From NCBI GenBank assembly GCA_001592805.2, contig CP051139.1, positions 1 through 64,000 on the forward strand: DNA of 64,000 nucleotides, written 5' to 3'. Every line of letters starts with the position of its first letter. The stretch's first letter is position 1. Positions 1-61,882 of this stretch are shown one piece after another. The notes beneath the pieces are model-generated. The model did not search any database. It was not told the origin of the DNA and saw only the letters and a program-made list of their open reading frames with translations. This stretch comes from Peltaster fructicola. Lineage: Eukaryota; Ascomycota; Dothideomycetes. Made by a program: the position numbers and the translations under genes.

Positions 1-80
1 ACCCTACCCTACCCTACCCTACCCTACCCTACCCTACCCTACCCTACCCTACCCTACCCTACCCTACCCTACCCTACCCT
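1..80 (-). repeat. Telomere repeat tract, 16 perfect copies of ACCCT
   Basis: The first 80 bases are sixteen uninterrupted copies of the five-base unit ACCCT. Read toward the chromosome end on the complementary strand this is TAGGG repeated. The C-rich strand at the left edge is the orientation expected for a left chromosome end. The usual filamentous-fungal repeat is the six-base TTAGGG, so the five-base unit is unusual. It should be checked against raw reads, because loss of one A from each AA would produce the same string. The tract stops abruptly at base 80. Confidence 0.93.
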
Positions 81-500
81 CCCACCACCACCAGCAACAC
101 ACACACACACCGCTTTCTCGACACACACGACTCTGCTCATTCACTTCCACTCCTTACTACTGACTCATCTTGCTTCCTCATCACACAACACTCCCATGTC
201 TTCACCAATCTACCACCCACTCTCCCTGCACGACCACTCACCCTTTTCGTCTGATTCCTCTTCTCCAGTCTCCTCCTGGCTCTCCTCTATCAATCGGCTT
301 ACTCAGAATGTCTCTCACTGCCTTGCGCATCATTCTACATGGCCTCTCAGTTCGTGTCTTACATCGTCTTGTTACTCCATGACCCATTGACCAATCACAT
401 CCATTTCCATATATATTCACTCTTCTCACTGCTCTCATTCATTCTATCCGCTTACTAACTCGTCATCTGGTCTCAGTCGGGACTTACAACAGCTGTGCAC
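81..500. other. Telomere-adjacent G-poor flank
   Basis: This stretch directly inside the telomere is almost free of G on the plus strand and made mostly of C, T and A. It includes a short CA run at about 96-110. Short open frames here follow from the skewed composition and show no protein character. A C-rich plus strand means that a transcript running toward the telomere would be G-rich, as for TERRA-type RNA. That is inference; no promoter is visible. Confidence 0.6.
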
Positions 501-3420
501 TTCATCTGGACTCATTTTGGTGTCTTCCTCATACAAACTTGTCTCAGGTCTATGCTTCTTTGCTGCTGCAGCTACAGAAGTCCGATTGACTTGATTCTTC
601 TTTCTATGAGCTCTTCTCGCTCTTCTCTACGAGTCTATCCGCTTACTTATTGTCTACTCACCTCGCGCATGAGTCTACATGGTCATATGTGGTGCACACC
701 TGTGTGGAGTAAATTTGTTAGTGAAATTCATACTAATATCCTCTGCTCACATGTCACTCTGCACACTCACCAATAATCGTGCTATCGAGCTGATTCTTCT
801 TTCTATGCGACGGCCACACTCTGCGCTCTCCACTGACATTGGATTGAGGTGTATGGCGTCAATACTGGTGATTCTAGAAGGTAGAGAAGTGCTTGGTGTG
901 TTTTGATAACAAATTTCCTCCTTGGACCCTGAAATTCGAAAGTCTTGGCGTGCGAAAATCACCACTTTCTTCTTTTTCAATTTTCGTATTTTATGCTGTT
1001 TCTGAGCTTTTCCAGGAGCTACTCGGCGAGCTGATTCCATATATACAGTCAGATTCGCGATAGGTGGCCTATAGCACATTCTACAGGGTGGAGAACTGCT
1101 TGGTGTGATTCTCATACAAATTTCCTCCATTCTGAGATATACATACCCCACAGCATTTCTCATACTTGCCTGCAACACCCCATTCAGCTTGTCAGTCTCT
1201 GAGTGAATCGTCCTATACTTGGTGAGAGAGTGATAGCTCTGAGTCTAGGCTGTTGATTGAGCCATAAATCATGTCTATATGAGCTCTGTAGCTCACTCTA
1301 GGAGGTAGAGAACTCGCTGGTGTGAATGCCATACAAAGTTCCTCTTAGACCCTTGATGCCTTACTGCCTGATTTTGAGCTTTCTGAGATTTCGTCTCCTA
1401 CGCTCAAAACAGTGATTTCTAGGAGCTCCTCGACTGTCTCATCTCAGATCAGATGTCAGAAAGGTGATAGGAGCTTCGTAGCTGCAGTGAATCGATGGAG
1501 AAGTGGTTGGTGTGTTTTGCTAACAAATTTCCTCCATTCTGAAAAGTGCACCCCACTATGTATTTCTCATACCTGCCTGCATCAGGCCATTCAGCTGGTC
1601 CATTTCTGAGTAAATCGTCTTATACTTGGTGAGTGACCTCTAGCTCTGAGTGAGAGCTGTCGATTAAGCCATATATCAGCTTTCGATGTGGTCTATAGCT
1701 CATTCTAGGTGGTGGAGAAGTGATAGGTGAGTTCCTCATAGTAAATTCCTCTAAGACCCTTTCTGCCTTGGTGCCTGATTTTGAGCTTTCTGAGTTTTCG
1801 CACAGGAGCTTCGAAACAGTGATTTCTAGGAGCTCCTCGACCGTCTCATCTCAGATCAGCTGTCAGAAAGTGTGTAGGAGCTTCGTAGCTGCGAGAAAGT
1901 GATGGAGAACTGCTTGGTGTGTTTCTCATACAAATTTCCTCCATGCTCAGATATACACAGTCGTGCGTATATCTCATACCCGCCTGTATCCCCCTTCAAC
2001 TCTCTCAATATAGCTCTGATTGAGATGACTTCTATGAGCGACTTCTAGCTCTCATTCTGAACTCTCAATCCATCCATATATCAGCTTCGTAGCTAGCCTG
2101 TAACTCATTCTATCAGGTGGAGAAGTGGTGGGTGTGTTTCTCATATAAAGCTTCTCTGGACCCTGATTTTCATCTCATCTTCACTTCATCCCATCTTCAG
2201 CCCTCTCAATATAGGTCCTATGGCTTCGCCTTGTATGAGCGACTTCTAGCGCCGAGTGCGAGCTCTCAATCTAGCCATATATCAGCTTCGTAGCTGTCCT
2301 GTAGCTGCTTGTGTGAGGCAGAGAAGTGGTTGGTGTGTTTTACTAACAAATCTCCTCCATCCCCACATGTACACAGTGCTGTGTATTTCTCATACCTGCC
2401 TGTATCCCCCTACAACTCTCTCAATATAGCTCTGATGGACTCACACTCTATGAGAGAGTTGTAGCTGCGACTCAGAGCTCTCAATCCATCCATATATCAC
2501 TGTGATAGCTCACCTGTAGCTGTTTGCGCAAAGTGAAGTGGTTCACACACTCAGATGGAGGAAATTTTGGTGGGGATTGCTAACAAAACTCCTCTACCTT
2601 GATGCTACAGTCAACTCCTTCAATATCACTCCTATGGCTTCACTCTGTGTGAGTGAATTGCTCTCCTCGCTCTGAACTGTCCCCCTATGTGCGTGGTTTC
2701 CTTCTTTGACGTCTTGGTGGCAAGGAATATGACTCCCTGACCCACTGACATCAGTTTAGAGGAAATTTCTTAGTGTTTCTCATACAAACTTTCTCCATCT
2801 TTGTGTCAGTGAGCTGGGGAGTCATTTCTGATGCTAGGGGACTGTGAAAGTAAGGTTTCTCACGCGCTCGACAAGCTCTACAGCCTAAAGCTTCCCCCAG
2901 GCTGATAGCTGCTCTGTAGCTGTGTGTAGGTGGTAGAGAAGTGCCTGGTGTGATTCTCATACAAAATTCCTCCATTCCCACATATACACAGTGCTGTGTA
3001 TATCTCATACCTGCCTGTATCCCCCCTCAACTCTCTCAATATAGGTCCTATGGCTTCACTCTATATGAACGACTCAGAGCTGCGACTCAGAGCTGTCGAT
3101 TGAGCCATATATCACTGTGATAGCTTGCTTGTAGCTGTCTATAGCAGGGAGAGAACTGCTTGGTGTGATCCTCATACAAATTTCCTCTGGACCCTGATTT
3201 TCATCTCATCTTCACTTCATCCCATCTCCAACTTCACCAATATGGCTCTGATCGATTCACTCTGTATGAGCGACTTCTAGAGCTCACTCCTGGCTCTCAA
3301 ATAAGCCATATATTAGCTTCCTCACACGCCTATAGCTCTGTCTGCAAGGGAGAGAAGTTCTGCATGTGTGTGGAGGAAATTTGTTAGGGTTTCTCACCCA
3401 ACTCTACTCTACTTCTATGA
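500..3420. repeat. Subtelomeric tandem repeat, about 205-bp unit with a 407-bp dimeric period
   Basis: A diverged box beginning GAGAA(G/C)TGSTTGGTGTG and ending CAAATTTCCTCC recurs at 884, 1091, 1308, 1498, 1715, 1905, 2120, 2321, 2936, 3151 and 3352; two blurred copies fill the gap near 2540 and 2755. Spacing alternates between about 190-207 and 215-217 bases. Two versions alternate. One is followed by an AGACCCT/GGACCCTGA-type stretch, the other by an ATTCTGAGATATACA-type stretch. The true period is therefore a dimer near 407 bp. Between the boxes, AGCTCT- and CCATATATCAGCT-like words also recur. Less clear copies begin near 520. No coding capacity is seen. Confidence 0.85.
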
Positions 3421-3899
3421 TCCTTCGCCCTGAGCTCAATTCTCACTCTACAGACTCCTAACCATATAGATTCTCATCAGAATGAAGAGCTCTACACACC
3501 TATACGTCTATCTACGCTCTACGAGCTCTGAGTGTTGAGATCATTTTTGATTACTGCCCTAATGTAATCATTAATTCAGGTGGTCTGTGCGCAGCTGTAG
3601 GTGGCCTGTGCGCTCAGATTGGCGACAGCGACAGTGAGCTCTAGGAAGGATATATAGATATATAGACCTCATAGGCGTGCTCAGTGGCTCTGTAGCTACA
3701 CATTGATATAGGTATGGACTCTATAGGACCATTTTCAAGCACCCTACTTCCCACCAATTTTCACCTATGTGACTATGTGAGACGGGGACACTCTCGTTGT
3801 TGCCAGCGTACTGCAAGGACCTTGACCAACACAACGTCTGAACACGCCGTGATTGTATCAACATGATCTCCTCTCTTGTGGACTGGGTAGCGACATCAG
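3421..3899. other. Gene-free junction between the two repeat arrays
   Basis: Unique-looking sequence lies between the 205-bp array and the 156-bp satellite. I see no gene, RNA or clear repeat in it. A short TATA-rich stretch (TATATAGATATATAG) lies near 3650. Confidence 0.4.
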
Positions 3900-37463: not shown

Positions 37464-38735
37464 ATGGCTCTCGTCCTTCTGTCCTGCTTCCCGCTGCTTG
37501 TTTCTGGTCTGAACGTCTTTCACAGCAACTGCACCATACCTGACAGCAATGTGCACTTTGCTTCTGCGCCGAACACACGCGGCACACTCGAGATTGTATG
37601 GACTTCTCTGGCAACAATCATAGCTTGTGTCTTCACAGTACTACATCTCAACGTACCAGAACAACGACAAGGTAGAGATCCAGGATGGAAGGGAGATCTG
37701 TACTGGACCATGAAGAACCTGCGGACCAGCCTGTCGTACTCCCTGCTAACGATCTCCATCCCTGAGCTAATGCTTGGAAAGTCGATCACAGATCGACGCG
37801 CGGCGCAGTATTATCTGAAGGAGCTGCACGAGTCTATGCCAGAGACCAAAACTACCTGGACACTGCAGCACATGCTTTATGCTGGCATGGGCGGTTTTGT
37901 AGCAGTATATGGCGCTGAGGTACCACCAATGCCCTTACTGGCTGCTACTGAAGAAGGACGTTCAGGGTACACTCAGGCTAGCAATGAGGCTGCTTCACAA
38001 CCCGGAGTCTCATACTCAAACGACCAGACGATGAGTACTACTCGAGATCTAGAAAGCAACATGCGACTCGGACATGGTGATGCTCGCCAGTCGGCTCAAC
38101 CATCTAGACTATGGCACTTCACATGTGGAAGTCTAGTCTACGCAATCAAGAAAGGCCTCGTATCCAACGTACCTCCACTCACATCAGCAGAGGTCATGGA
38201 CAAGTCTAAAGCGGATCTCGTCAGCAAGATAGTCGCCATCTTCCAGATCTGCTACTTCGTTATCGTTGTCATCGCTCGAGCCGGTCAACGTCTTCCAGTC
38301 TCGCAGCTAGAACTCGGAGCCTGCGCCTTCGTGCCATACGCTATAGCCATCTACCTCTTCTCACACGACAAGGTGAAATCAGCACGAGTTGTAGCCGAAG
38401 TCGGTAGGATCTCGGCTCAGTCTGCAACAGAATTGAGTCGGAGTGGACATTACCTCTACAGCGTGTTTCTCTATGGCTATAAGGAAGTAGACGGATCCTG
38501 CGTCTCTAATTCTGACTATGAGGATTCTGATAACACCTCCTATGGATTCGGCCTTTACATACCCGTACTGGCCAGCATACCGTTTGGGTCCATCCACATA
38601 GCAGCCTGGAACTTCGATTTCTCATCGCAGGTTGATGCACAATCGTGGCGGATAGCATCGATCGTCATTACTCTCGCTCTACCCTACTTGGTCATGACAA
38701 CAGTAGTGGTGGCTGCCCTTCCATGGGACTCATAG
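37464..38735 (+). CDS. Polytopic fungal membrane protein, conserved tail cut off by an in-frame stop
   Basis: This is a member of an uncharacterised multi-spanning membrane protein family common in filamentous ascomycetes. A cleavable-looking signal (MALVLLSCFPLLVSG) is followed by the family's RGT-x-x-I-x-W stretch with a membrane segment, then HLNVPE. Further on come a long polar loop and K-A-D-x-x-S-K-x-V-x-x-x-Q before another membrane segment. A final hydrophobic stretch ends at ALPWDS, giving 423 residues. The TAG at 38733-38735 is followed, in the same frame and without another stop, by 56 codons (to TAA at 38904-38906). These encode the family's usual C terminus: a membrane segment, ARLVIVVEMFRTLAYLP and a WTSNMPHIG end. 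So either the gene is truncated, the stop is read through, or the base is wrong. A 33-bp in-phase GT..TAG segment ends exactly at the stop, but it is shorter than every other intron here. Confidence 0.82.
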   Translation: MALVLLSCFPLLVSGLNVFHSNCTIPDSNVHFASAPNTRGTLEIVWTSLATIIACVFTVLHLNVPEQRQGRDPGWKGDLYWTMKNLRTSLSYSLLTISIPELMLGKSITDRRAAQYYLKELHESMPETKTTWTLQHMLYAGMGGFVAVYGAEVPPMPLLAATEEGRSGYTQASNEAASQPGVSYSNDQTMSTTRDLESNMRLGHGDARQSAQPSRLWHFTCGSLVYAIKKGLVSNVPPLTSAEVMDKSKADLVSKIVAIFQICYFVIVVIARAGQRLPVSQLELGACAFVPYAIAIYLFSHDKVKSARVVAEVGRISAQSATELSRSGHYLYSVFLYGYKEVDGSCVSNSDYEDSDNTSYGFGLYIPVLASIPFGSIHIAAWNFDFSSQVDAQSWRIASIVITLALPYLVMTTVVVAALPWDS

Positions 38736-39266: not shown

Positions 39267-41104
39267 ATGCTCGATCGCAATACAGACACCTCCAAAGTCT
39301 TCGCCTGCACAAGCTGCACACGTCGCAAAGTACGCTGCGACAAAGCACAACCGACATGCGCGAGCTGTACACGCCTCAAACTCGATTGCCAGTACGAGGA
39401 ACCTGTCGCGAAGAAGCGCAAACGTGAACCCGACACTGATAAGCTCGAACAATACGAACAGCTCCTTCGAGAGCACAATCTCCTTGACGAAGCTGCTTCC
39501 AAAGCAGCACCTCGTGCAACAGGCAGACTCATATCAACGTCTGGTAACCACCGCTATGTCGAAAGCACATTATGGCGCTCCTTCGCCCGACCTGAAGAGC
39601 TTGCTGAAGACCCCGAAGAGCCTTCGACGTTCTTCTCGAGTGCTCTCCTAGGCGTTCCACAAGCTCAAAGAGACCTCACAGAACACCATCCTTCTCAAGC
39701 AGACACCGCCGTACTATGGCATCTCTACAAGGACAGAGTAGATGCTGTAGTCAAGCTGCTTCACATTCCGACAGCAGAGCTGCTCATGGCGAAGACCTTC
39801 TTCACCAAGACTGAGGAATGTCTCATCTTTGCAATCTATTCCTTCGCTGTATCCTCTCTCACAGAGGCAGAGTGTATGCAGGTGCTCCACCAGGATCGCA
39901 ATCATCTAGTAACACTCTACCGAGAATGCCTCAATCAAGCGCTTCTCAACGCAGACTTCCTACGAACGACGAACCTACAGGTCGCGCAAGCTCTCATGCT
40001 CCTGCTTACGATGTCGCGAGGACGCACAGATGCTCAGCTCTTCTGGATACTAGTAGGAGTGGTGATCAGGATCGCACAGCGTATGGGTTTGCACAGAGAC
40101 GGCAGTCTTACAGGCCTCAATCCATTCGACACTGAAATGCACAGACGTTTGTTCTGGCAACTACCAGCACTCGAAGGCTTTGCTGCTCAGTTCGCAGGCA
40201 TCGGTGCAAGTTCACTCGACACCCTCTTCTGGGACACCAAGAAGCCTCTCAACATCAACGATGCCGACATCTGGCCAGGCATGACAGAAGTACCAATAGA
40301 AAGGAAAGGCGCCACAGAGATGATCTTCCTCCTAGTTCGATCGTGCTTCAGCAGCTTCTACAAGACCTTTTCAGCAGATCTACGCACACTTGAATCATCA
40401 CAAGACGAAGAACACTACAAGCAAGTCAGCGCTCGAATTGATGGTATTGAGGACCTTCTGGAGTCGCAGTACCTCAGATACTGTGATCCCATGGAGCCGT
40501 TACACTTCTGCGTCTCACTGATGGCGAGAGTGGCATTGCAGGCTTCTCGCTTTCGCCTGCGTATGCCATGGGCCAAGCTTGGCTTACTATCAGCAGGAGA
40601 GAAGGAGGAGTACTATAAGACCGGCATCGAAGTACTGGATCGAGCTATTGTCACGCAGACCAATCCTCAAGTGAGCAAATACCATGTTCATACCAATTCG
40701 TTTGTGCTATGGGACATACTCATCTACTGCGTCACCCAAGCACAGCATAACAAGAGCGCAGATGATCCGTTGTGGTCAAGATTGGCTGTGCTGTACAAAT
40801 GGTAAGGCTTTAATGCTCTGTAGCCACGCTGACATGTTGTAGTCAAGCACATCTGCTTGCTTTGAAGCTGCCAATAGCTATAGCTCTCTCCAAGCATGTT
40901 CTGCGTGCTTGGGATGCTCACAAGAGTGACATACCAGAACCTGAGTACATTGCCAAGATACGTGCGAGTCTTGGAGAGACGACATCCTTTCAGGAGTTGC
41001 CTGTTGATCCGCAGATCACCATGGAGGATGTCCAGGACTTTGATTGGAAGTTCTGGGAACAGTTGATCAGAGATCCAGACTCCCTAGCTGTGGGTTCCCT
41101 GTAG
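39267..41104 (+). CDS. Zn(II)2Cys6 fungal-specific transcription factor
   Basis: A nuclear DNA-binding regulator; its targets are unknown. Exon 1 is 39267-40801 and exon 2 is 40843-41104, with a 41-bp phase-2 intron (GTAAGG donor, CTGAC branch site, GTAG acceptor), for 598 residues. The binuclear zinc cluster lies at residues 14-40 with spacing C-x2-C-x6-C-x5-C-x2-C-x6-C. It is followed by a basic patch (KKRKRE) that can serve as nuclear signal and linker, and by a short Leu/Glu coiled coil (LEQYEQLLREHNLL). The middle homology region (fungal_trans) is recognisable from RTDAQLFWILVGVVIRIAQR and GLHRDGS, ending in EMHRRLFWQL. It is not adjacent to an obvious biosynthetic cluster, so no pathway can be proposed. 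Confidence 0.93.
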
Positions 41105-43301: not shown

Positions 43302-45842
43302 ATGCCATCAGCTCATAATCTGACGGCCACACATTCCAACAAGTCTCCTGGCGATCGAAAGCGCAAACGGAACATCTCCCAAACCACACCAGGCCGACCA
43401 AGACCTACACAGCCTTCACACATGGAGGCGATGTACTCGTTTGCCGCTAGGACGCCTTCACAGCTCAGCAATGGTCACACAACAGCTCGCCGGACGAGTC
43501 TACAGAAGAGCCCAGGCTTCAATGCACACACAGGTGCGAAAAAGCTGGTTGTGAAGAACATCAAGGCACAATCGCAGTGGGACAGCAAGGCATACCTTGA
43601 TAAGATATGGACTCAACTTGACGCAGCCTTGGACATCATCCTCAAGAACACAAGACAGCTTTACAGTAACGAGGACTTGTACCGCGGCGTCGAGAATGTC
43701 TGCAGACAAGGAGGCGCATCTACGCTGTACACCAAGCTCGAACATCGATGCCGAACACACGTCGAGTCTGACATTCATCATCCACTCGCAATCAGCCTTG
43801 ATGGTTCGAATGTTGAGGTCCTCGATAAGGTCATCCACGCATGGACGACCTGGAAAGAGCAGATGAGCATCATACACTCGATCTTCTATTTCCTCGACCG
43901 GTCGTATCTCCTCTCCTCGAGCAAGCCAACCATAGCAGAACTCACCCCAAAGCTCTTCCGGGAGATCGTCCTCGACGATGCAATCAAGGGAAGGACAATA
44001 CAGGGCGCCTGCGACCTCGTGACTGAAGATCGACAAGCACATTCACTCCCGCCGCTGTTCGCCAGCTCGGTCAGCATGTTCAACGACCTCTCAGTGTATA
44101 ACACAACCTTCGAACCACACTTCCTAGATAAGAGCAAGGAGTTCACAAGCACTTGGGCAGGGACACAATCACAAACGAGTGACGTTCCGACATATGTTGG
44201 CGCCACCGAGAAGCTGATCGAAAAAGAGCTGGAAAGATGCACAATTCTTGCAACAACCACACGCAGGGACCTCCTAGCGACTCTAGAGAATGATCTCGTT
44301 GTCGATAAGGTAGACTATCTCACGGCCGCACCACCTCTTGCAGCTCTGCTTGACAAGAACGACACTCAAGCCCTGACAGCTCTCTACAACCTGCTAGCAA
44401 GACGAAAGCTCGGCAGCAGGCTGAGAACATCATTCGAGAAGTGGGTGAATGACACGGGTACTGCTATCGTTTTCGCCGACAAGTCCGACGACATGGTCAC
44501 ACGGCTGCTCAACCTTCAACGACAGCTTGATATCATCTGGCGCAACTCATTCCAATCAGACGAGAGTCTCGGCCATGGTCTGCGCGAGAGCTTCGAGATC
44601 TTCATGAACAAAACGAAGAAGGGAGACGCTACATGGGGAACTGACAACACCAAGGTTGGCGAGATGATCGCCAAGTACGTTGATTTACTGCTTCGCGGTG
44701 GTGTCAAAGCACTCCCTGAGCTCAACGCACGTCGTACATCCATAGTCGAGGAGGACGACGAAGAGCTCGATGAGGACGCAGAGATGAGTAGCCAGCTTGA
44801 CCAGGCACTCGACCTCTTCAGATTTGTTCACGGCAAAGCAGTCTTCGAAGCATTCTACAAGAAGGATCTCGCGCGACGACTACTCATGGCTCGTTCAGCC
44901 TCAGCAGACGCAGAGCGTAGTATGCTCACAAGGTTGAAGACTGAGTGTGGTAGCGGCTTCACACAGAACCTCGAACAGATGTTCAAGGATGTCGAGCTTG
45001 CAAGAGAAGAGATGCAGTCCTACAAGCAACGTCTCGAGGACAGACTCAGCTACGACAAGGGCAAGGATCTCGACCTGAGCGTCAACATACTCTCTGCTGC
45101 AGCCTGGCCAACGTACCCTGATATACCTGTTATCATTCCTGCCAACATCAAGAAGGCTATCGACGACTTCGAGCTACACTACAAGAATAAGCATACTGGC
45201 AGGAAGCTCGACTGGAAGCATTCACTGGCACATTGTCAAATGCGCGCTGTGTTCCCAAAGGGTAGCAAGGAACTCGTTGTATCTAGCTTTCAGGCTATTG
45301 TCCTCCTGTTGTTCAATGGTCTCGCTGATGGCGACACATTGACCTACACCCACATCCTGTCCGAGTCAGGCCTGCGTAAGTCAATCCATCCTATCTACAA
45401 TCATCACTGACACACTCCAGCTGAAGCAGAAGTCAAGCGCACACTACAATCCCTAGCATGCGCGAAGCTCCAACCACTAAGCAAGCGACCCAAGGGCAAG
45501 GAGATCAACGACACAGACGTCTTCAGTATCAACGACAACTTCTCGCACCCCAAGTATAGAGTCAAGATCAATCAAGTCCAACTCAAGGAAACTAAGCAAG
45601 AAAACAAGGAGACCCATATGCGTGTTGCTGAGGACCGCAACTTCGAATGTCAAGCTGCCATCGTGCGCATCATGAAGTCTCGAAAGACAATCGGCCACAG
45701 CGAGCTTGTATCGGAAGTCATCAAGGCGACAGTCAGCAGAGGTGTTCTGGCAGTCGCAGATATCAAGAAGAACATCGATAGACTGATTGAGAAGGACTAC
45801 ATGGAGCGAGAGGACAATGGTGGCTACGCCTATGTTGCATAG
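43302..45842 (+). CDS. cul4: Cullin-4, scaffold of CRL4 ubiquitin ligases
   Basis: Scaffold that holds a DDB1-type adaptor at its N terminus and an RBX1 RING protein at its C terminus. CRL4 enzymes act in DNA repair, replication control and, in fungi, heterochromatin formation. Exon 1 is 43302-45375 and exon 2 is 45421-45842 (45-bp phase-1 intron, GTAAGT donor, CTGAC branch site, CCAG acceptor), for 831 residues. A basic, disordered N terminus (about 80 residues, with KRKR) precedes the helical cullin repeats. The cullin homology segment includes FRFVHGKAVFEAFYKKDLAR and LLMARSASADAERSM. The last 80 residues form the neddylation winged helix: in IVRIMKSRKTIGH the first lysine (of IMKSRK) is the expected NEDD8 acceptor, and the protein ends YVA as CUL4 proteins do. 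It converges on ELP2 with no intergenic base. Confidence 0.95.
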
Positions 45843-48062
45843 TCATATCTTATACAATCGTACAGAGGTATCCTCACTTGCTACTGCAACAAGCTCTTCC
45901 TGAGCCGGTCTCCAGGCGATCGACGTGATCGCTGCTGATGGTGACAGCTGCTTCTCGAGTGTCTTTTGTTCCACCGTCCTCCATTCATCACTACTAGATG
46001 CGACGACAAGATCACCATCCTCGGTACCATACAGCAATCGTGTCCCTGATGTCGAGAAAGCAACTGCAGTGACAGCAGCTTGCGCGATGATGCTCGTCAA
46101 CTGCTCAATACTACCATTGCTGATCTGCCAGATCTTCACCACCTTATCTCGCCCAGCTGTAGCAAAGGTGTCACTAGACGCCCATGAGCAGTCCAGGATC
46201 ATGCGGCTATGACCTTTGAGGTTTGCAGTACATGGCTCGTATGTGGTGTCTGCCTTCTGGAACAATGCCCACTGCCTGTCGCGACCAACACTCAACAGGT
46301 ATGCATCGTCTCTTGAGAAGGCCAGACTCGTGACTGTGAGTGTATGTGCTGACAGAGCCGGCTTCACTTCCCGCCATTCTTTCGTCTCGTATAGTCGTAT
46401 CACTGCATGGTTAAGCGTGCTGGCCTTGCAAGCTGTGGCGATGAGAGACCCAGAACAGTTGACTGCAACAGCTGAAATCTCATAGCCATGACCATAGAGC
46501 TTCTCATGTTCTGGCCAGAGCGTATGCCGTGCTAGAGTGTCCTCGACTGGCGGTTTGTCCAGTGCTGGCGCTGGTGCAGCCTCCTCATTCTCATCTTGAA
46601 TGACAGCCTTGTTCGATAGTCCAAGCACTGGGATATTAGCAGATTCTGGCAACTCTTCATCATTCAATTCGAGGCCGGCAAGACTCGACAGTAGTTTCTC
46701 AGCACCTCGTGGCTTGTTGAACACTCTCAGTAGCTTCTCATCCGCTCCTGAGACGAACTGGTTTCTCGTCACGGTGGTAACGCAATTCAAATCGTAGCCA
46801 TGAATCTGTGGTCGAGCCATCTCATGCCAGGACGATAGCTCTGTCTTCCACTCTGCCCAGAGTCGAGTGGTTTGGTCTGAAGATGTGGACAACAGGTACG
46901 AGCCATCGTTCGCCCACGACACAGACTGTACCTCTCGGACATGCCCACTGACGCCAGTCTGCTGTTGCCAGGATGTTTCATGCAAAGACCACAATCTCCA
47001 GCTACCGGTGCGACTGAGACTTGCTACACTCTTTCCATCTGGACTCCACAAGCCTATCCAGAACCCTCCAGTACTTCCAGTAGCTGTTGTGGATCCCTTG
47101 AGTGAGCTGATCTCACCAAGACGAGTCTCGCAGATCCATAGACCAGATCCTTCTTCTCTGCGCCATATCGACAACGAGTTATCTGCCGAAGCTGACAGCA
47201 GTGTTGCTTCCTGTGCTGACGGTGCCCAACGTGCTGTATAGACCCAGTCTTCGTGCCCTACAAGTAGGGCATCGTAGGACATGACCCAGTGCCGGTCACC
47301 ACAAGCTAGACGATACAGCTTATTCGACAAGCTCTCCATGGTCGTCTGCGACTGTGAATTGCCACTGGACTCTTGCAGCTTCCAGAGACGTATATATCTG
47401 TCCTGACTGGTCGATGCGAGCATCACAATCCCGTTCTGGCTCTGGAAGTCAAGCGACCTTACCCAACCTTCGTGACCAGTCAGTGTAGCTTGCAGACTCA
47501 AGGCCGTCTCTAGCGAACCAGCATACACCTGAATCGAGGTCAGCGTTCCAGCGACAGCCAGCACTACAGCACCAGAGGCTAGCTCGACCAGAGCTGTTGC
47601 AAGAGGTATAAACTTGGGCTTGAGAGAGATGGACTGCAGCAGATCAACACCAGCCTGCGACAACCGCCATAGCTTGACCGTCCCATCTGCAGCACCACTG
47701 ACGAAGATGTCGGAACCTGAGATCGTCGAGATGGTGTTGACTGAGGCTGTATGATCACTCAGTACCTTCCATTCACCAAAATGACCTTTGCCATTCGATT
47801 GCCATACTCGAATAGAACTGTCATTTGATCCTGAGATGATACAGAGACCAATCGAGGGCGATTCGAGGATCTGAATAGCATTCACACTATTCGTGTGACC
47901 TCGTAGTATCGTGCTAACACCAGCATGTTGTCCGTCTGCTGGATTCCACAGCGCAATGTTGTTACCAGCTCCATAGGCAAGCAATTCATTCGACCAGTCC
48001 GCAGCTGAAGGGTGCCTGTTACCGCCGGTAGTGATGTATCGCAGCTGAGCATCGGTCATCAT
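45843..48062 (-). CDS. elp2: Elongator complex subunit 2 (WD40)
   Basis: WD40 scaffold of the Elp1-Elp2-Elp3 half of Elongator, which starts the cm5/mcm5 modification of wobble uridine (U34) in tRNA. It is a single exon of 739 residues, close to the family's usual 780-800. About twelve to fourteen WD-type blades are visible, for example GHTNSVNAIQ...NDSSIRVW, GHEGWVRSLDF...SQDRYIRLW, GHEDWVYTARW...SADNSLSIW, GHVREVQSVSW...SSDQTTRLW and GHSRMILDCSW...GRDKVVKIW, consistent with the two seven-blade propellers of ELP2. Two Met codons open the frame and either could be used. Its stop codon directly abuts that of CUL4. It shares a 117-bp divergent promoter with URM1, which acts on the same nucleotide. 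Confidence 0.95.
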   Translation of the reverse strand: MMTDAQLRYITTGGNRHPSAADWSNELLAYGAGNNIALWNPADGQHAGVSTILRGHTNSVNAIQILESPSIGLCIISGSNDSSIRVWQSNGKGHFGEWKVLSDHTASVNTISTISGSDIFVSGAADGTVKLWRLSQAGVDLLQSISLKPKFIPLATALVELASGAVVLAVAGTLTSIQVYAGSLETALSLQATLTGHEGWVRSLDFQSQNGIVMLASTSQDRYIRLWKLQESSGNSQSQTTMESLSNKLYRLACGDRHWVMSYDALLVGHEDWVYTARWAPSAQEATLLSASADNSLSIWRREEGSGLWICETRLGEISSLKGSTTATGSTGGFWIGLWSPDGKSVASLSRTGSWRLWSLHETSWQQQTGVSGHVREVQSVSWANDGSYLLSTSSDQTTRLWAEWKTELSSWHEMARPQIHGYDLNCVTTVTRNQFVSGADEKLLRVFNKPRGAEKLLSSLAGLELNDEELPESANIPVLGLSNKAVIQDENEEAAPAPALDKPPVEDTLARHTLWPEHEKLYGHGYEISAVAVNCSGSLIATACKASTLNHAVIRLYETKEWREVKPALSAHTLTVTSLAFSRDDAYLLSVGRDRQWALFQKADTTYEPCTANLKGHSRMILDCSWASSDTFATAGRDKVVKIWQISNGSIEQLTSIIAQAAVTAVAFSTSGTRLLYGTEDGDLVVASSSDEWRTVEQKTLEKQLSPSAAITSIAWRPAQEELVAVASEDTSVRLYKI

Positions 48063-58316: not shown

Positions 58317-61300
58317 TTATATGCAGAACAGCGCCAGGGTTGCAATCGCAAACGCACTCAATGCAGTCCACATCCGCACATCGAGGCTCTGTCCATGACC
58401 CTGATAGACTTGCGAGCTTTGACTGGCCATTGTCGGGGTCGTGGCAGTCGTGCGCGAGGAAATGGAGTACGTCACAGTGACTGTCCTTGTCGTTGGTTGA
58501 GCAAGAGTGGTTGTCTTGCCATTGACGACCAAATACGAATCCGACGGCCCAACAGTGTACGTGGTGCCGCTGACAACCACAGATGACCCTCCAGGCCTGA
58601 GGGTCTGCGATGCTATGACAAAGTCGCCATTTGAGGCTTCAGTGATGACACTGCCAGCCACAGTGATGCTGGGCCGGCTCACCTCGAGGATCGTTGTGGT
58701 GTGCGATCCTGCAGATGTGGCTTGTGCGAGAGCTGAAGACGGCACTGTCAGCTTCAGTGAACCAATATCCACTTCTGCCGACCCAGCGCTCAGTGGTACA
58801 ACGCCGACGCCTGCTTGGAACGTCGTGCTGGGCTCCTCCACGATGCCTTGCAGTGTAGGATTTGGCAATGCGATCGTGGAGCTGCCGACCACCACGAGAG
58901 ACGTGCCAGCTGAGACCACAGTACCGCTTATGGTCGTGACCTGGCCAGGCGAGAGTGTTGCGCCACCAACGATGACACCAGTCCCTGCAGGAGCTGGAGC
59001 AACTGTTTGACCGCCGACTGTCGCGATAACGCTTTGCGATGGAGTTGTGTTCAAATTGATGGTTGAGCTTCCCACGACAACCACTGATGTGCCAGCAGAG
59101 ACGATAGTTCCACTGATTGTGGTGACCTGCCCAGGCGAGAGGGTTGCACTACCAACAACAACACCCCCTGATGGTGCTGGTGCGACTGTCTGGCCGCCGA
59201 CTGTCGCAATAGCACTTGACGATGAAGCTGCAGCAAGAGTGATCGTTGACCCTCCTACCACAACGGCTGATGTTCCAGCGGACACAACAGTCCCACTGAT
59301 TGTCGTAACTTGGCCAGGAGTGAGAGTCGCGCTGCCAACCACGACGCCACCGGAAGGTGCCGCAGCGACTGTCTGGCCGCCGACCGTTGCAATGGCGGTC
59401 GGCGAAGGACTTGCGACTAGAGTGATGGTGGAGCTCCCTACCACAACCGCTGACGTTCCTGCAGACACAATGGTACCGCTGATGGTTGTAACTTGACCTG
59501 GCGTGAGAGTCGTGCTACCACCAACAACGATTCCACCACCCGAAGACGCCTGACTGATCGTCTGCCCTCCCACTGTTGCGACAGCGCTTTGTGTAGGTCC
59601 AGATAGACTCACAGTAGAGCCAGCGACAACCACTGCAGAAGAGCCAACTGACACAGTCGATCCACCAATGACAGTGATCTGGCCTGGTGTAAGAGTCGTG
59701 CTGCCGCCAACGACAACTCCTCCGTCTGAGACTGGTGCGATCGTCTGACCGCCTACTGTGACCACAGCAGGCTGAGATGATGCAGTAGTCACCACGAGTC
59801 CCGACTGCACATTCGAGATCACAACGCTTCCAATCGTGACAGCGCCACCAGGAGCGACGGTAGACCCACCGACCACAGCATTGCCAGAGACACTAGTGAT
59901 GGTGAGCACACTGCTGTCCGCTGTAATTACAGCTGCTGGCGAAGCACTAGGGTCCTGAGTCAACGCTTGCAGTGCATTGCTGGGTGATGGTTGTGTTGTG
60001 AAAGGTATCACTTGCGGGTCGTTCGCAGATGTGACAGCAGCAACTGATGCTTGACCACTTCCTGTTGTGGTTGTTGCAGGATCGTCTGCTCTGCTCGTTT
60101 GGGCAACGGCTGTCTCCACAGAGGCTTCGACATGTGCTGTCGATGGCACTTCAAGCGTCTCGACAGACGTTTCAACATGTGCTGTCGATGCCACTGCAAT
60201 GCTCGTCGAACCCGGATCGATCTGCGATAGAGCTTGTACAACCGTAGGTGACGCTTGGCTCGTCGCCGGGACTGTGAGGATTGTTGGCGGTTGAATAGGA
60301 CTCGCGGGCACGGTACTTGTTGGGTCGACTGATGTTGTCGCAACAGTTGGTACATCAGGTGCATTCGTCGCTGTCAGTGCTTGCGGTGGGTCATAGGCGC
60401 CTAAGAATTCGGGCAGGCAGGTTCTCCATGCTGGTTCCAGGTCGAGAAGAGGTGGTGGGAGAGCTTTGATACGTCAGTATATTCAATAACTTCGACGAAA
60501 CACTTACAGATACGAGCACGATAGATGTCGTCGTAGATGGTGTTACACTGCAGATGCGGTCCATCTGCATAGCAACCTGGCCTAAATGGTACAGTGCTTG
60601 GCTGGAAGAGATTGTCTGGAGCCAGGTAGTAAGCTCTTGGATTTGGCCGTGTGAGATCATCCACGTTGATTCTTGAGGCCAGCAAATTGAACGTGCCATC
60701 TCCGAAGATACTGAGAACCCAATCGCGATAGTCTGAAGCATTGGGAGATGCTAGTGCAGTGATAGCAGCGTCAGGGAAGGGCCTAGTTGTGGGGCCTAAG
60801 AAGTTTGCAGGGTCGGTGTAGTAGCCGTGTGCGAGTTCCAGAGTAGAGAGATCCTTTGGCGCCATCGATATCACTGCATTGGTGAGTGTAGTACCGACGG
60901 AAAACTGCGACTCTTGATTCCTTCCCCCTTGCGGACACGATACCATAGTGTAAGACGTTGCCCGTGCGGAAAGCTTGTCAAAAGCTAGATAAATACTTGG
61001 AGATGTCATAGTGAGGTTGCCGACAACCGCTGTCCGTGGTATGACAGTGCCATTTCTGCTCGGCGGTCTTGTGAAGGTCGAGTTCGTCGAGTTGTCTCGC
61101 GGCCAGTAGAAGAGCTGTACTGTGTTTGCGACAACTGTGCATGGTGCAGTCGAGATCGATACGACGCAGCTGGGATTCGGCACGGCGCATCGTGGTGAAT
61201 TGGTCGGAGGAGAGAACATGCGAGCTGCCGGTGTGGTGGAGAATCTCGAGATGTAGCTGCTGTAGAAGGCATCGTACATAGAGCTGCAATCTTGGTAGTT

Positions 61301-61882
61301 GAATGTGCATGTTGGAGAAGGAGGAAGCGTAGCATTGATGCGCGATGCGGGCGTTACAGTCTCTGTGAAGTTGTTGGTTTGATAACTGTACATCCGCCAA
61401 GGCAAAGTGACTGTGTATGTCATGTTGCCATGAGCATGGGCGAAGCCATCCACGGTAGTGTATACATCAGCAGTGCCATAGCTGAGGTCACTTGATATCT
61501 TGTAGGTCTCGATTGAAGTGATCGTGGTGAGGTACGGCTGTTTGATGCTTGTCGTGACTGCGGACCAGGAGACTAGAGAGGCTTGACACTGTTCTGCTCC
61601 TACGGTCGTGCCATTGCTCGTTGTCCCGGTGCTTAGTCCCGATCGTGGAGCCGACAAGGACACTCGAGAAGAGGTCAGCCGTTGTTGGGATGCTGACGCT
61701 GACGCTGATGCTGATGCTGATGCTGATGCTGATGCTGTTACGGAGCTCGACGTTCGTGGCGTTGACAAAGTGTTGCTTAGGACGATCGAGCTGACGCCGG
61801 CGGCCTGAACTGCAGGTACAACAACGACGAAGAATTGCAGCCACGCAGCTAAGCTAGTGACGGTCATCTTCACGTCAAGCAT
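58317..61882 (-). CDS. Large GPI-type cell-wall protein: YWP-family head plus tandem VGGQT repeats
   Basis: A cell-surface protein with 1173 residues in two exons, 61882-60508 and 60463-58317 (44-bp phase-1 intron, GTAAGT donor, CTGAC branch site, AAAG acceptor). A signal peptide (MTVTSLAAWLQFFVVVVPAV) is followed by a Ser-Ala dipeptide run. Next comes the YWP head with many N-glycosylation sequons: LFYWPRDNSTN, TSPSIYLAF and, across the intron, PAWRTCLPEFLGAYDPPQAL. A Ser/Thr/Ala stalk follows, then five repeats of about 58-60 residues built on ATVGGQT, GGVVVG, LTPGQVTTISGT and SAVVVGSSTI. The end is a hydrophobic tail (WTALSAFAIATLALFCI) typical of GPI attachment. Two Met codons 15 bases apart (61882, 61867) could start it. 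A likely role in wall architecture or adhesion is inferred from the layout. Confidence 0.85.
58860..59770 (-). repeat. Five coding tandem repeats of 174-180 bp in the cell-wall protein gene
   Basis: Each unit encodes a VGGQT motif, a GG(V/I)VVG motif, TLxPGQ(V/I)T and a VVVGSST-like strand. The inner three copies are the most alike and the outer two more diverged, as expected when unequal exchange acts mainly in the middle of an array. Copy number may differ between strains. Confidence 0.8.
61680..61740 (-). repeat. Coding microsatellite giving a Ser-Ala run
   Basis: A GCTGAY hexamer-like run (GCTGACGCTGATGCTGAT on the plus strand) encodes alternating Ser-Ala just after the signal peptide of the cell-wall protein. 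Slippage would change the length in whole dipeptides without breaking the frame. Confidence 0.8.

Follow-up and report, generated by a model that had tools for sequence, protein, structure and literature searches.

TAGGG telomeres at all ten chromosome ends of Peltaster fructicola and the probable change of telomerase template behind them

Introduction

TTAGGG is the telomere unit of most Pezizomycotina (PMC10100673). For Peltaster fructicola, a fungus of apple surfaces placed in Dothideomycetes incertae sedis, a shorter unit has been described. The genome report of 2020 presented 18.99 Mb in five telomere-to-telomere chromosomes, with nanopore and Illumina data used in assembly and polishing and with polishing done repeatedly, and gave TAGGG at all chromosome ends, stated as new for fungi (PMC7181583). 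TAGGG was also given for this species in the TelFinder study of 2023 (PMC10100673). The TAGGG telomere of P. fructicola is therefore already known, and in the repeat itself nothing differs between these accounts and ours. The genome report further called five bases the shortest unit known, with 6-26 bases for all other eukaryotes (PMC7181583). This remark needs qualifying, because the five-base unit TTAGG is known in arthropods (PMC7046594) and the four-base unit TAGG makes up 75.3% of the telomeres in the microsporidian Nosema muscidifuracis (PMC11592040).

The five-base unit TAGGG is also that of Giardia, likewise in an organism with a TERT (PMC10999387). However, Giardia telomeres additionally contain TAAGG and TAAGGG variants, extend over 500 bp to 2.5 kb and are accompanied by a TERT without the T motif (PMC10999387), whereas the ten tracts of Peltaster consist of TAGGG and one TGGG only. 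Since the two organisms are unrelated, their TAGGG units would have arisen independently. Nosema muscidifuracis, a fungus-group parasite, has likewise lost one T from its main unit, from TTAGG to TAGG, but retains the old unit at about 20%, together with 1.5% TAGGG (PMC11592040). Unlike this parasite, Peltaster has no tandem TTAGGG left. Most Pezizomycotina share with Peltaster short terminal tracts, a fungal TERT and a Tbf1-type telobox protein (PMC10100673), and the differences are the one T fewer per unit and the absence of TTAGGGTTAGGG from the Peltaster genome. To the published record we add the unit counts for each chromosome end, this absence of TTAGGGTTAGGG, an inventory of TERT, Tbf1 and Pot1-type domains, a test of the telobox and a shared subtelomeric repeat family. 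In the complete replacement of TTAGGG by TAGGG in a filamentous ascomycete, nature has in effect tested a one-base change in how the template is used, how repeats are phased and how telomere proteins bind.

Results

The window, as we call the whole stretch of DNA analysed, comprises the first 64,000 bases of contig C1 (C1:1-64000); the whole assembly has 5 contigs totalling 18,987,130 bases. Positions 1-80 are thus the very end of C1. These positions hold 16 ACCCT units with 100% matches and 0 indels, and the G-rich strand, (TAGGG)n, is the minus strand, running outward to the contig end. The window has 14 copies of the word TAGGGTAGGG, every one within 1-80, where shuffled sequences lead one to expect 0.04. 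In contrast, TTAGGGTTAGGG occurs neither in the window nor anywhere in the assembly, so the canonical TTAGGG unit of filamentous ascomycetes is absent as a tandem repeat. Inspection of each end showed outward TAGGG at 10/10 ends of the five contigs, reading ACCCT at every left end and TAGGG at every right end, as is required of telomeres. Complete TAGGG units numbered 15 at the left end of C1 (16 when counted as ACCCT) and 16 at its right end, 17 and 18 for C2, 21 and 9 for C3, 19 and 24 for C4, and 18 and 20 for C5, the last with one additional TGGG; over the ten ends this makes 177 complete TAGGG units plus the one TGGG. This sole off-type unit lies in the tract at the right end of C5, two units in from the outer end of the tract. 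Four TAGGG units in tandem matched the assembly 145 times (70 + 75), the reversed control word not once. The junctions behind the tracts are ten different sequences. Thus, positions 1-80 are the left telomere of the largest P. fructicola chromosome, and the ends carry the tandem, G-rich and outward repeat of a telomerase-type (TxAyGz)n telomere. A sequence-only reading of the window had claimed that an ascomycete chromosome here ends in the five-base unit TAGGG, familiar from Giardia, and had named TTAGGG at other contig ends as what would speak against it. The claim is borne out by the 177 units, and no end carries TTAGGG. The TAGGG telomere is real and complete as a repeat switch.

P. fructicola encodes a telomerase reverse transcriptase. 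The frame is open over 902 residues and contains a telomerase RNA-binding domain (C4:518480-518878, E 1.7e-42) as well as a reverse transcriptase domain, and it matches solved telomerase reverse transcriptases with E 4.5e-71; the Pfam TERT_C domain scored 20.8 bits, under its cut-off of 27 bits. Two loci matched the POT1-type domain, one with E 2.0e-11 and the other with E 3.2e-6, which speaks for the presence of the domain.

A search for the telomerase RNA among candidate template places, of which 125 of 136 were read, was negative and gave no convincing locus. These 136 places are made up of 56 non-telomeric occurrences of CTACCCTAC, which has 222 places in the assembly with 166 of them inside telomere tracts, and 80 occurrences of TACCCTAA. 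To qualify, a candidate had to have a boundary helix 5' of the word, and the word itself had to lie clear of long reading frames. For CTACCCTAC, 50 of the 56 places were read, leaving out C1:344940 and five that are C-flanked on both sides; for TACCCTAA, 75 of the 80 were read, leaving out C4:2810911, C5:1514688, C5:1913813, C5:2240717 and C5:2491863. The predicted template word CTACCCTAA, whose 16 places are included in the 80, was read at all 16 and gave no good candidate. The hairpin test covered the TACCCTAA places read apart from two in L152 and the one at C1:1721678 (inside L078). Several candidates, among them L054, L064, L068, L098, L104, L105 and L115, sit in short frames. For five loci a wider context was fetched, again with no convincing result. 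In these, with names taken from the translations, L074 closely precedes a prenyltransferase-like frame, L075 contains a retrotransposon-like frame, L093, a weak candidate, precedes the first ATG of a glycosyltransferase-like frame by about 340 nt, and L134 is a weak candidate with the word about 20 nt past the stop of a Rag/Gtr-like frame that is followed by about 1 kb without a clear gene; the fifth was L135. An Rfam scan of 75 loci (E<=10), from which 56 short loci were left out (L094-L113, L115-L133, L136-L151 and L153), showed no telomerase RNA. Rfam RF02462 had no match over the genome in a search that scored 2 of 2,436 first-look candidates and recovered the control positive in 0 of 14 genomes, and so does not speak for absence of the RNA. 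The synteny with ZPR1 seen in Aspergilli was followed as well, and TACCCTA is absent from L052, L053 and L076. In the literature collection searched, no published telomerase RNA for P. fructicola came up. Among the places read, C5:285853 (L068), C2:424162 (L104) and C2:538377 (L105) share near-identical stretches of a sequence that is dispersed in the chromosome interior and abounds in ACCCT-like words.

A TRF-domain protein of Tbf1 type is encoded at C3:2441812-2442396 (E 2.5e-38); among its named relatives, several go under TBF1 or TTAGGG repeat binding factor. The Peltaster protein carries the telobox of the canonical ascomycete duplex-binding protein, with a QVQLKDKARN core identical to that of the solved chains 8ynu, 6k5u and 8x6d. 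We aligned 20 proteins, selected among 120 matches listed of 896 found. The relatives in this comparison are taken to have TTAGGG telomeres, as is known for most Pezizomycotina. In the alignment the stretch from D513 to L528 of the Peltaster protein, including NQVQLKDKARNLKL, is invariant in 20 of 20 proteins. Private residues across the telobox stretch of 96 residues number 4 in Peltaster and 0 to 8 in the other 19 proteins, a range that omits 7 gap columns inflating the count of P0120. At the 61 telobox positions that are invariant in 11 matched relatives, Peltaster has 0 changes. Since the telobox is unchanged at its invariant positions, no retuned recognition is seen in the DNA-reading helix of Tbf1, as judged from these alignments. 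The earlier expectation that the sites of Taz1/Pot1-type binding proteins must have changed along with the repeat thus finds no support in the duplex-reading helix.

The remainder of Tbf1 behaves differently from the telobox. In comparisons with 11 relatives, the terminal branch of Peltaster is 4.09 times as long as the average of the other branches in Tbf1, 2.23 times in TERT and 1.75 times in the control Elp2. Using the genomic frame, Tbf1 has 29 private changes at 170 invariant positions (other species <=11 each), compared with 17 at 267 in Elp2 (other species <=10 each). All 29 fall at frame residues 1-184, of which the first may not all be exon, and the telobox begins only near residue 255. 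From these substitution counts, and with one control protein, we would tentatively regard Peltaster as a long branch generally, a level that the TRFH part of Tbf1 exceeds. A higher count of 41 private changes at 187 positions, obtained with the public model AMS68_004865, was rejected as inflated by apparent mis-splicing. Compared with the consensus of the relatives, this model misfits at about residues 230-260, where the genomic frame fits, and it looks mis-spliced there. For Elp2, the homologue P0242, located on a 4.3-kb contig, is 77% identical to the Peltaster protein, with the next matches at 57%.

Discussion

The TAGGG tracts of P. fructicola are almost certainly the product of telomerase, and very probably the whole observation reflects a real TAGGG telomere made by a telomerase with an altered template. 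In Aspergillus, CCCUAA is present in all 13 telomerase RNAs studied, and several of these TTAGGG-making RNAs have a template of the form (C)UAACCCUAA(C) (PMC3603654). We modelled the consequence of losing a single base from such a template with a copying script. When one A was deleted in the 5' copy, a TTAGGG primer was extended into pure TAGGG; when one A was deleted in the 3' copy, the product was still TTAGGG. Ordinary telomerase would accordingly still maintain the ends, now writing TAGGG, after its template had been shortened by one A in the 5' copy, the one that does the templating; (C)UAACCCUAA might, for instance, have become (C)UACCCUAA. Pairing of the resulting end, ...GGGTAG, with the CUA on the template's 3' side would remain possible, and each cycle would add GGTAG, that is one TAGGG unit. 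A single base would suffice, and realignment would survive. As the exact route to TAGGG, this one-base deletion is in the model the probable one, and we favour it with moderate confidence. A changed telomerase RNA template had also been claimed from the window sequence alone. In our model the change follows from the action of telomerase; the RNA itself, by contrast, did not turn up among the 125 of 136 places read.

A template that is itself unchanged could also yield TAGGG if an early stop or slippage, brought about by a change in the boundary or in TERT, skipped one T per cycle. Slippage has a precedent in some Aspergilli, in which it adds an extra T (PMC3603654), and in the TERT of Peltaster 36 of the 228 positions that are invariant in 11 relatives carry private changes, where the other species have <=10 each. 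But such a mechanism should leave mixed units, while only one of 178 is off-type, and the branch leading to Peltaster is long in the control protein as well (1.75). We consider it very unlikely that one T is skipped in this way and retain the altered template as the preferred explanation.

Deletions in short runs are a typical nanopore error, and a true TTAGGG unit would read as TAGGG if the consensus had dropped one T of the pair. This base-calling or assembly artefact gains some footing from the history of the assembly, which started from nanopore reads and in which Canu missed one telomere until the hybrid step (PMC7181583). The Illumina reads of the earlier study, 2 x 100 (PMC7181583), are roughly as long as the telomere tracts. 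Against it stand the Illumina data that entered both assembly and polishing (PMC7181583), the intact GGG runs, and a series of 177 units with one off-type in which TTAGGGTTAGGG never occurs. A strand-dependent reading error is unlikely because the repeat at the left ends is the reverse complement of that at the right ends, at ten different junctions. An artefact is in our judgement highly improbable. It is scarcely credible that recombination, or some other route independent of telomerase, maintains the ends and that TAGGG is a frozen satellite. For this reading the repeat family shared by three ends and the failure of word searches and of the RF02462 search to find a telomerase RNA might be cited, but it has to contend with the open TERT frame and its RNA-binding and reverse transcriptase domains, with short and near-perfect tracts at ten different junctions, and with long shared repeats at only three of the ten ends.

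Tbf1 can probably go on binding the TAGGG ends, since it shares its recognition helix with the relatives. With a TAGGG period, neighbouring Tbf1 sites would lie one base closer and be turned on the helix, which could lead to faster change outside the telobox. It is a speculative idea, and in our estimate rather an unlikely one, that Tbf1 accommodated the step from 6 bp to 5 bp per repeat through its dimerisation or partner region rather than through DNA recognition, with the one-base template deletion as the trigger. If true, one small template mutation would have reset the whole telomere system.

The sequence adjoining the left telomere of C1 can be followed into the chromosome. A telomere-proximal junction stretch, starting with CCCACCACCACCAGC, occupies window positions 81-289 and is followed at about 290-3772 by a diverged subtelomeric repeat family, which includes a tandem stretch with a unit of about 407 bp at 1089-1998. 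BLASTN among the ten 10-kb ends showed that the left end of C1 and the right ends of C1 and C3 share this family in pieces of 1.0-2.4 kb with 72-89% identity; between C1 left and C3 right the identity is 84% across 2,371 bases. The genome report found subtelomeres of up to 25 kb to lack homology to one another (e-value 1e-3, coverage >10%; PMC7181583), a remark that, depending on how coverage was defined there, needs qualifying because three ends share a repeat family. Two further pairs of ends have only 48 and 137 bases in common. Window positions 1-37463 are without an ATG-started open frame of at least 330 residues, the first such frame starting at 37464 or later. Among such frames, family matches begin with a Zn2Cys6 regulator at 39267-40805, followed by a cullin at 43302-45410 and by Elp2 at 45843-48062. 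Further inward lie a 183-bp tandem repeat of 3.4 copies (58906-59528) and a GATGCT microsatellite of 8.2 copies (61689-61737).
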